Of a stretch of DNA of 64,000 nucleotides, positions 34,491 to 37,907 are shown in pieces. The stretch comes from Desulfonispora thiosulfatigenes DSM 11270 (GTDB lineage Bacteria > Bacillota > Peptococcia > Peptococcales > Desulfonisporaceae). The notes beneath the pieces are model-generated. The model saw only the letters and a program-made list of their open reading frames with translations, was not told the origin of the DNA and searched no databases. Numbering within the stretch: position 1 is the first letter of the stretch; the number at the start of each line of letters is the position of its first letter. The stretch lies in contig NZ_FWWT01000022.1 in NCBI RefSeq assembly GCF_900176035.1, positions 1-64,000 of the forward strand, written 5' to 3'. Position numbers and translations under genes: made by a program.

Positions 34491-36353
34491 GTGATAGGGA
34501 AAAATCTAGGTGGAAGATATCAGATATTATCACCTATAGGCGAAGGTGGCATGTCAGTTGTATATAAAGCAAAGGACCTACTTTTAAGCCGATTAGTAGC
34601 TGTTAAAGTACTAAGAGAACAGTTTACCAGTGATAATGAATTCGTTAAGAGATTTAGAAGAGAAGCACAAGCTGCAGCAAGTTTATCTCATGCCAATATC
34701 GTAGGTATATATGATGTTGGGCAAGATGAAAATTTATATTATCTAGTAATGGAATATATTGAAGGTGAAAACTTAAAAGAGATTATAAAAGAAAAAGGTA
34801 TGATCTCACAAGAAGAAACTATTTATATTGTCAAGCAAATTTGTGATGCCTTAGAACATGCTCATAAAAATGACCTAGTTCATAGGGATATTAAGCCACA
34901 TAATATTTTGATAAATAAAGAAGGATTAATTAAGGTAACAGACTTTGGTATAGCTAGAGCTGTTAGCGCTGCAACTGTTACACATACAAAAGGTATCTTA
35001 GGTTCTGTTCATTATTTTTCACCTGAACAAGCAAAAGGAGAAATAGCAGGTCATAAATCTGATATATATTCACTAGGGATACTTCTTTATGAAATGATAA
35101 CTGGACAATTACCTTTTGAAGGTGATTCTCCAATTAGTATAGCCTTGCAACATATTCAAAAGGATCCCATTAAGCCTAGAGAAATTAATCCTAATATAAA
35201 TCAAGATTTAGAAAATGTTATTTTAAAGTGTATTGCTAAAGATAGCAATGATCGTTATGAAAGTTTTAGTAATATAAAAAATGATTTGCAAGATATTCAT
35301 GAGGGAAAACTTATTCAAATAGAGGTTAAGGAAAATAAAAAGTTTGACACAAATTCTTTAGAAAATACAATTGTGTTCAGTGATAAATTAGAACCCAATA
35401 AATCTATAAATAATAAAAAGAAAAAGAAAAAGATAAAACCAACCGGATATGCTCTTATAATATTTATTGGATTAATTTTACTTGTGGGATCTACTTGGTC
35501 ATTTTCTAAACTTTTCATAAAACAGGATGTAATAGTACCAGATGTACAAAATTTAACTGTATCTGAGGGTAAAAGACTATTAAAAGATAAAAAATTAAAT
35601 TTAGAAATTAAAAATGAAATAGAAGATGATGAAGTACCTGAGGGTAGAATTATCAGCCAAGATCCTTTACCAGATGCTAAAATAAAGTCCAAAAGAACGG
35701 TGATGGTAATTGTAAGTAAAGGGGTATCGAAGGTTTTAGTTCCAGATATAGTTGGGTATACAGAAGCAGAAGCAGAAATACGACTAACTAACAAGGAATT
35801 AGAAATTGGTGAAATCACCAATGAATATAATGATGAATATCCAATTGGGAGAGTAATAAATCAATATCCAAGATTTGAAGACGAGGTAACAAAAAATAGT
35901 AAAATAGATTTAGTAATTAGTAAAGGATCAAGACCTAATTTTAAATCTATGATAAGTTTAATAGGTCTTGACTTAAATGTTGCAGAAGCGAGAATATTAG
36001 AGCAAGGTTTAGTTTTAAGTGGAGTTACCAAAAAACCTAGTAATCAATATGGAGAAAATATAGTTTTTGAGCAAGATCCAGCTGTAGGTGGGCGTGTTAA
36101 AGCAGGAACTAAAGTAAATTTAATAATAAGTTCTGGGACTGCAAATAATTCTAGTGAATCAAAGGTAGCTGTAAAGTTAACTAGGCCTGGGAATTTAATT
36201 ATCGAAGTATCTGATGCTAATGGTGAACGCGAAGTATATAATGAACAACATCAAAAAGATGATGTTATTACTAAAAATGTTACTTATAATGGGCAAGCTA
36301 CAATAACAGTATATTTAGATGATGAAATTATTTTACAAAAAAATGAGCAATAG
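34491..36353 (+). CDS. prkC: Ser/Thr protein kinase with PASTA repeats (PknB/PrkC)
   Basis: 620 residues. The cytoplasmic kinase domain spans about 1-270 (GEGGMSVVYKA, catalytic HRDIKPHN near 131, DFG). A Lys-rich linker ends in the membrane helix at about 320-340. Three extracellular PASTA repeats follow (about 345-550), each beginning with a VPDxx or equivalent segment, then a beta-rich C-terminal tail. PASTA domains bind muropeptides or lipid II; PrkC phosphorylates division, wall and translation proteins and triggers spore germination in B. subtilis. It starts GTG 34491. prpC, a SEDS protein and rsgA flank it, the classic cluster. Confidence 0.95.
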   Translation: MIGKNLGGRYQILSPIGEGGMSVVYKAKDLLLSRLVAVKVLREQFTSDNEFVKRFRREAQAAASLSHANIVGIYDVGQDENLYYLVMEYIEGENLKEIIKEKGMISQEETIYIVKQICDALEHAHKNDLVHRDIKPHNILINKEGLIKVTDFGIARAVSAATVTHTKGILGSVHYFSPEQAKGEIAGHKSDIYSLGILLYEMITGQLPFEGDSPISIALQHIQKDPIKPREINPNINQDLENVILKCIAKDSNDRYESFSNIKNDLQDIHEGKLIQIEVKENKKFDTNSLENTIVFSDKLEPNKSINNKKKKKKIKPTGYALIIFIGLILLVGSTWSFSKLFIKQDVIVPDVQNLTVSEGKRLLKDKKLNLEIKNEIEDDEVPEGRIISQDPLPDAKIKSKRTVMVIVSKGVSKVLVPDIVGYTEAEAEIRLTNKELEIGEITNEYNDEYPIGRVINQYPRFEDEVTKNSKIDLVISKGSRPNFKSMISLIGLDLNVAEARILEQGLVLSGVTKKPSNQYGENIVFEQDPAVGGRVKAGTKVNLIISSGTANNSSESKVAVKLTRPGNLIIEVSDANGEREVYNEQHQKDDVITKNVTYNGQATITVYLDDEIILQKNEQ

Positions 36354-36376
36354 ACTAGAATAAGGGAGAGATAAGT

Positions 36377-37252
36377 ATCGAAGGGATAATCTTAAAGGGG
36401 TATAGTGGTTTTTATTATGTAGAATATAATAATCAAATATATGAATGCTCATTAAGAGGTAAAAATAAATTAATAAACTCTAAATTTTTACCTGGGGATC
36501 AAGTGATATTTAGTATTATATCTGACTTTAAAGGTGTAATAGAAAAAGTATTACCAAGAAAAAATGAATTAACAAGACCCCCAATTGCTAATGTAGATCA
36601 GGTTATTATTGTTAATGCTTGTTTAAATCCTCCACCTGATTTTTGGATGATTGATCGTCTAACTATTTTGGCGCTTTGGAATAAAACAAAACCAATTCTT
36701 TGTTTTAATAAAAGTGATTTAGTAACGGAAGATGAATTAAATAGAATTAGAAGTATTTATGAGAAAGCTAATTTCAAGGTAATTTTTACTAGTAGCAAAC
36801 AGAACATAGGTATAGATGAGTTAAAAGAAACATTAACTGGAAAGAAATCTGTTTTTGCCGGTTTGTCTGGAGTAGGAAAATCTAGTTTATTAAATTCTTT
36901 ACAAACAGAATTAAAATTACAAACAGGAGAAATTAGTAACAAATTAAAAAGGGGAAAACATACAACACGTCATGTTGAATTTCTTCCTTTTACATTTGGT
37001 GGCCTAGTAGCAGATACACCAGGATTTAGTTCTCTTGATTTACCCAAGGATATTGTAAGAGAACAATTTTCTTGGTTATTTCCGGAGATATATGCTTATC
37101 AAAATGAATGCAAATTCTCAACTTGTTTGCATAACAAGGAGCCAAAATGCGCTGTAAAGGAAGCTGTTAGCTTAGGAAAAATAAGTGAAAATAGATATAA
37201 AAATTATTTGGCATTTTTAGAAGAAGTTATAAGCAATGAAAGGAGTTATTAA
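36377..37252 (+). CDS. rsgA: ribosome small-subunit-dependent GTPase RsgA, probable non-ATG start
   Basis: A circularly permuted GTPase that helps 30S maturation: N-terminal OB fold, GTPase with NKSD (G4), SGVGKSS (G1) and DTPGFS (G3), then a zinc domain (CKFSTCLHNKEPKC). The first canonical start codon in frame is GTG 36503, which would remove about 42 residues of the OB fold. The upstream codons clearly encode that fold (GIILKGYSGFYYVEYN, CSLRGKNK, FLPGD), back to a stop at 36356-36358, with no ATG, GTG or TTG. The likely start is ATC 36377, nine bases after AAGGGAGAG, giving a 291-residue protein; ATA 36371 is the alternative. Confidence 0.88.
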   Translation: MEGIILKGYSGFYYVEYNNQIYECSLRGKNKLINSKFLPGDQVIFSIISDFKGVIEKVLPRKNELTRPPIANVDQVIIVNACLNPPPDFWMIDRLTILALWNKTKPILCFNKSDLVTEDELNRIRSIYEKANFKVIFTSSKQNIGIDELKETLTGKKSVFAGLSGVGKSSLLNSLQTELKLQTGEISNKLKRGKHTTRHVEFLPFTFGGLVADTPGFSSLDLPKDIVREQFSWLFPEIYAYQNECKFSTCLHNKEPKCAVKEAVSLGKISENRYKNYLAFLEEVISNERSY

Positions 37253-37253
37253 A

Positions 37254-37907
37254 TTGATAAAGATCGCACCATCATTATTGTCAGCTGATTTTAGTTGTTT
37301 AAAAGAGGAGGTAGAAAGTATAGAGACGGCAGGAGCCGATTGGTTACATCTTGATATCATGGATGGTCATTTTGTTCCTAATATTACTTTTGGACCTTTA
37401 GTTTTAAAAGCCTTAAAAAAACATTCTAATTTATTTTTCGATACTCATTTAATGATTGAGAATCCTGATAAATATATACAGGAATTTGTTAGTGCAGGAG
37501 CTGATTTAATTACAGTTCATGCAGAAACAACACCTCATTTGCATAGGACTATCCAAAATATAAAGTCTTTAGGAGTTAAGGCCGGTGTATCGTTAAATCC
37601 TTCAACTCCACTTAATGTTTTAGAATATGTTATAGAAGATATTGATTTAGTTCTTTTAATGAGCGTTAATCCTGGATTTGGAGGGCAAAAATTCATCCGA
37701 AGCGTTGTCTGTAAGATAAATGCTTTAAAAAAATTAATAGATGAAAAGAACTTAAATTTAAGTATTCAAATTGATGGTGGAATTAATAAAGAAACCGCAC
37801 CTCTTGTAGTTGAAGCTGGGGCAGATGTTTTAGTTGCAGGGTCTGCTATCTTTGGTCATGAAAACAGGAAAAAGGCCATAGATGACATTAAAAAGTCTTA
37901 TGCTTGA
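37254..37907 (+). CDS. rpe: ribulose-phosphate 3-epimerase
   Basis: 217 residues, TIM barrel; interconverts ribulose 5-phosphate and xylulose 5-phosphate. IAPSLLSADF at the N-terminus, HLDIMDGHFVPNITFGP and SVNPGFGGQKF are diagnostic, with catalytic Asp in the first and fourth strands' motifs (DIMDG, DGGIN). The start is TTG 37254, with AAAGGAG eight bases before; the in-frame ATG 37236 lies in rsgA and would add residues not found in the family. Last gene of the long operon. Confidence 0.95.
   Translation: MIKIAPSLLSADFSCLKEEVESIETAGADWLHLDIMDGHFVPNITFGPLVLKALKKHSNLFFDTHLMIENPDKYIQEFVSAGADLITVHAETTPHLHRTIQNIKSLGVKAGVSLNPSTPLNVLEYVIEDIDLVLLMSVNPGFGGQKFIRSVVCKINALKKLIDEKNLNLSIQIDGGINKETAPLVVEAGADVLVAGSAIFGHENRKKAIDDIKKSYA

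Follow-up and report, generated by a model that had tools for sequence, protein, structure and literature searches.

The rsgA gene of this genome probably starts at ATC (position 36377), a rare and inefficient start codon, and the sequence features around it point to a weak AUC start within a small class of genes with AUH starts. The AUH start of the RNase J gene, rnj, is the more notable result, as it is found across the order. Annotation of start codons assumes ATG, GTG or TTG, and genes with AUH starts are therefore truncated or missed. If the rsgA start is real, a ribosome-assembly GTPase joins the few genes known to start in this way. RNase J, with its AUH start across the clade, is a conserved case, and here the start codon may tune the amount of a central enzyme of RNA processing. 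The features of the window (the whole stretch of 64,000 nucleotides analysed) that are relevant to rsgA are as follows.

34491–36353, plus strand: PknB-like protein kinase/PASTA gene, upstream of rsgA, with its stop 23 nt before the ATC.
36356–36358, plus strand: TAG, in-frame stop closing the rsgA frame upstream.
36362–36370, plus strand: AAGGGAGAG, Shine-Dalgarno (SD) sequence of rsgA, duplex with the 16S 3′ end −8.8 kcal/mol.
36371–36373, plus strand: ATA, alternative near-cognate codon, zero bases from the end of the SD and rejected on spacing.
36377–36379, plus strand: ATC, proposed start codon of rsgA, based on SD spacing, the family boundary and alignment with the starts of relatives.
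36377–37252, plus strand: rsgA, small ribosomal subunit biogenesis GTPase, 291 residues from the ATC.
36503–36505, plus strand: GTG, first canonical in-frame start, whose use would delete 42 residues and with them most of the OB-fold domain.
37236–37907, plus strand: rpe (ribulose-phosphate 3-epimerase-like), downstream of rsgA.

Position 36359 opens the rsgA frame, which extends to 37252 and ends with the stop codon at 37250–37252. The first-pass annotation reported that the frame following the TAG contains no ATG, GTG, TTG or CTG before GTG 36503, and that this GTG cuts into the fold, and both statements were confirmed. Among the 58 genes in the window, rsgA has the most open codons ahead of the first canonical start, namely 48, and the next highest value is 22. 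The start of rpe is either ATG 37236 or TTG 37254, with the better SD sequence at the TTG.

The product belongs to the RsgA (YjeQ/EngC) GTPases, as both the OB-fold N-terminal domain and the circularly permuted GTPase domain score above the curated cut-offs (TIGR00157, 250.2 bits, cut-off 100; RsgA_N, PF16745, 49, cut-off 27; RsgA_GTPase, PF03193, 187, cut-off 30). The closest solved structures are 1u0l and 1t9h. The RsgA_N match covers residues 8–61 of the frame read from 36359, and the conserved fold thus starts at GAA 36380, the codon directly after the ATC; the alignment with the Bacillus subtilis RsgA (1t9h) starts at the same residue. Hence, translation beginning at the ATC would supply the whole domain. 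It had been claimed that the RsgA fold reaches back to the in-frame stop. This holds from GAA 36380, but codons 36359–36376 (NKGEIS) are outside the family match and hold the SD sequence. Codons 36380–36502 share 73–78 % protein identity with the five nearest relatives, compared with 61–65 % over the remainder of rsgA, and in both parts about half of the identical residues differ in codon. Conservation of the protein together with a comparable proportion of synonymous changes indicates that selection acts on a coding region at 36380–36502. The minus strand of contig C5 (L002, 95632–96441) carries another RsgA-like GTPase gene, 33 % identical and with a frame of 362 codons, that has an ATG start preceded by AGGAGG.

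An AUH codon follows an SD sequence at the usual distance, and no canonical start is compatible with the conserved N-terminus. The distance from the end of AAGGGAGAG to ATC 36377 is 6 nt (7 nt by duplex), not the nine bases given earlier. The initial proposal left the choice between ATC and ATA open. ATC 36377 is the likely start, because ATA 36371 touches the SD sequence while the ATC is 6 nt from it. Duplex energies assume a standard anti-SD, as the assembly holds only a partial 16S rRNA gene. Prediction of RNA structure around the rsgA start revealed nothing notable (z −0.84).

The relatives available for comparison of rsgA are from outside the genus and family, and the nearest RsgA is 67 % identical; a scan of named genomes recovered only distant RsgA homologues. 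In 28 of 28 relatives inspected individually, the rsgA start is ATG, GTG or TTG, located either at the position aligned with the ATC or upstream of it. A near-cognate rsgA start was thus conserved in 0 of 28 relatives, none of which is from the same genus or family. Of 20 additional start regions classified automatically, 16 were canonical and four received no clear call. In three relatives (L008, L016 and L017), the codon aligned with the ATC is itself ATG or GTG. The first-pass annotation had stated that its reading would be contradicted by relatives with a canonical codon here, and such codons were found in other families of the order (ATG in G007, GTG in G001 and ATG in G018), in RsgA proteins that are only 53–67 % identical and do not separate a recent change from an error. 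The uniformly canonical starts of the 28 relatives imply that the ATC either arose in this lineage or results from an error. As a regulatory feature of rsgA it is not conserved, in contrast to the starts of infC or, within the order, of the RNase J gene.

Further genes with AUH starts were sought in approximately 1.21 Mb, about half of the genome (996 gene calls), using three joint criteria: a strong SD sequence, an ATH codon at the distance expected of a start, and the lack of any canonical start that could serve. Those found were truB (GGGGAGGTTTCTAAA then ATT), rnj (AAAAAGGAGTGGAATTTT then ATA), rodZ (TTGGAGGTGTGGT then ATC ATA, with either codon as the start), ccpN (CAGGTGGTGAATAAAG then ATA) and a gene for a YkvI-like membrane protein (CCGGAGGTGAAGTAAT then ATA). 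Two genes for secreted proteins with ATT (C22:307665–308810 and C17:59483–60322) were spotted by eye. In infC, GGAGGTGACAAGT is followed by ATT, and there is an in-frame GTG three codons upstream. Family assignments were TruB, RNase J and RodZ-like, and CcpN scored above its cut-off. Relatives of truB have canonical codons near the N-terminus in all 17 readable cases, as do those of the YkvI-like gene, and infC in relatives has ATT or ATA wherever it could be read. Judged from these comparisons, there is a conserved set, infC, rnj and ccpN, and a private set, rsgA, truB and the YkvI-like gene. A strong SD sequence followed by a possible CTG start was also seen on the minus strand of C13 (105446–106117), in a gene with no family match.

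When counted codon by codon, the enrichment of ATH behind strong SD sequences (ATA, 4 against 1.75 expected) is too small to stand alone, and the case for AUH starts therefore rests on inspection of the genes and the conservation in RNase J. Control scans covered 393 kb from G010 and G001 (311 gene calls) and 398 kb from G037 (319 gene calls). These 630 gene calls included a few candidates, one of them clear, an ATA start in G037. An excess of AUH use over relatives was not found, with approximately eight in 996 gene calls here against a few weak candidates in the 630 control calls. Based on these counts, AUH use appears to be general at a low level. The gene in G037 (L188; contig C1, approximately 1.363 Mb) has its ATA behind GAGGGGGG and an N-terminus lacking a canonical start, and it resembles the PSRP kinase/phosphorylase family.

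The rnj gene of this genome is located as follows.

C23:22320–24005, minus strand: rnj (L200).

In 18 of 19 species of the order (L200 together with L201–L219), the only start available to rnj is ATT, ATA or ATC. These ATH starts are preceded by strong SD sequences (−9.4 to −16.5 kcal/mol) at spacings of 5–8. Outside the order, among approximately 54 sequences, 53 start regions were canonical and one had ATT (G054, L277). Using the lower count, 16 of 19 against 1 of 54, Fisher's test gives p = 3e-12, a value that is descriptive as the species are related. The leaders (L200–L219) also share TATAAT (18 of 19; shuffle mean 3.3) and, between it and the SD sequence, TCTGGTTCGGC or TTTGGTCGG (15 of 19; shuffle mean 0.3), and this conserved leader may be a control element of the RNase J mRNA. 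No paper on RNase J, or on rsgA, with such a start was found in the open-licence literature.

Not all readings of the rsgA start require an AUC codon. Translation from GTG 36503, the first canonical start in frame, would give a shortened RsgA, or the gene could be decaying. However, the SD sequence of this GTG is weak (−5.5 kcal/mol), the 42 residues lost match RsgA_N and are from the better-conserved part of the protein, and the remainder of rsgA is intact with its GTPase motifs present. This makes both forms of the explanation very unlikely. Start at another near-cognate codon is highly improbable. ATA 36371, ATA 36386 and ATC 36389 are all in frame, but the first abuts the SD sequence, and the others fall within the conserved motif EGIILKG, at distances of 15 and 18 nt from the SD sequence. 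The N-terminus could also be provided by a frameshift, either from the upstream frame, as there is an A7 run at the end of pknB, or from ATG 36343, which opens a six-codon frame. We consider the probability of this negligible, since TAG 36356 closes the rsgA frame, the frame of ATG 36343 lacks an SD sequence and stops at TAA 36361, and such a fusion is absent in relatives. A pknB–rsgA frameshift or fusion is ruled out by the in-frame stops.

A sequencing or assembly error, such that the deposited base is wrong and the true codon is canonical (e.g. ATG), deserves more weight. The ATC in rsgA is unique to this genome among the relatives compared, and several conserved genes in the assembly appear to be frameshifted, in most cases at A-runs:

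C22, near 70089: ftsY.
C22, 284150–284320: recN.
C22, 173296: glycogen phosphorylase.
C22, 232305: ahcY.

These may be homopolymer sequencing errors, or programmed or transcriptional slippage. However, the apparent errors are changes in A-run length, and there is no A-run between the SD sequence and 36390, nor is there an ATG, GTG or TTG near the SD sequence that one indel could bring into frame. Error would also leave unexplained a group of genes that deviate only in the third base of the start codon and retain the SD sequence and spacing. The several other AUH-start genes in the genome make an error less likely for the rsgA ATC, and we regard it as unlikely.

For the preferred reading, a start at ATC 36377, altered initiation components were considered and rejected. 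The initiator tRNA is ordinary (three identical copies, CAU anticodon, C1:A72), and IF3 aligns normally with those of relatives. The simplest mechanism is therefore that initiation proceeds in the normal way despite the mismatch at the third base. The usual initiator tRNA (CAU) would start rsgA at the AUC, with AAGGGAGAG positioning this codon in the P site and compensating for the third-position mismatch. Ribosomes terminating pknB at 36353 may re-initiate on rsgA directly downstream. A near-cognate start of presumably low efficiency would keep RsgA synthesis low and should make it sensitive to the level or activity of IF3.

The earlier interpretation was that rsgA could be controlled through start-codon fidelity. 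It gains from ATC 36377 being the best start and from the other AUH-start genes, including infC (ATT), and loses from the lack of conservation of the ATC. Such control is possible by analogy, but an old regulatory role is disfavoured because the ATC is not conserved, and regulation has a fair alternative in drift towards a weak start that is tolerated. In a wider proposal, which we consider rather unlikely, the AUH starts of this lineage would define a limited group of genes, including several for RNA or ribosome maturation (infC, rnj, rsgA and truB), and the translation of this group would rise jointly when IF3 or initiation fidelity falls. IF3 status would thereby be coupled to the assembly of 30S subunits and to the processing of RNA, with the order-wide AUH start of RNase J as the conserved core.

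Among known systems, the near-cognate start of infC (AUU, AUC or AUA) is repressed by IF3 (autoregulation). As in infC, the proposed AUH start of rsgA is behind an SD sequence, and its AUC is shared with Streptomyces infC, which starts at AUC (PMC5472188). However, the infC start is conserved and the product is the discriminator itself, whereas the rsgA ATC is not conserved. In Streptomyces, IF3 also represses the GTC start of sigR, and can thus set the level of another gene via its start codon (PMC5472188), but both codon and gene differ from those here, and the effect of IF3 is experimental for sigR and inferred for rsgA. In Escherichia coli, an inefficient AUU start is described as limiting expression of pcnB (as cited in PMC13009471), again an inefficient near-cognate start, though with a different codon and in a different gene. 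In Staphylococcus aureus, ccpN has an AUA start in Ribo-Ret data, reported to be conserved in B. subtilis (PMC13009471). In reporters, this start yields approximately 10 % of the expression obtained with AUG, a value that reaches 30 % in rich medium (PMC13009471). As the AUA start was shown experimentally, the recovery of ATA in the ccpN of this genome is an outside check on the scan method. Like rsgA, ccpN is a non-initiation-factor gene with a near-cognate start and an SD sequence, but its start is conserved between genera and its SD sequence is longer, while that of rsgA is moderate and the start is not conserved.
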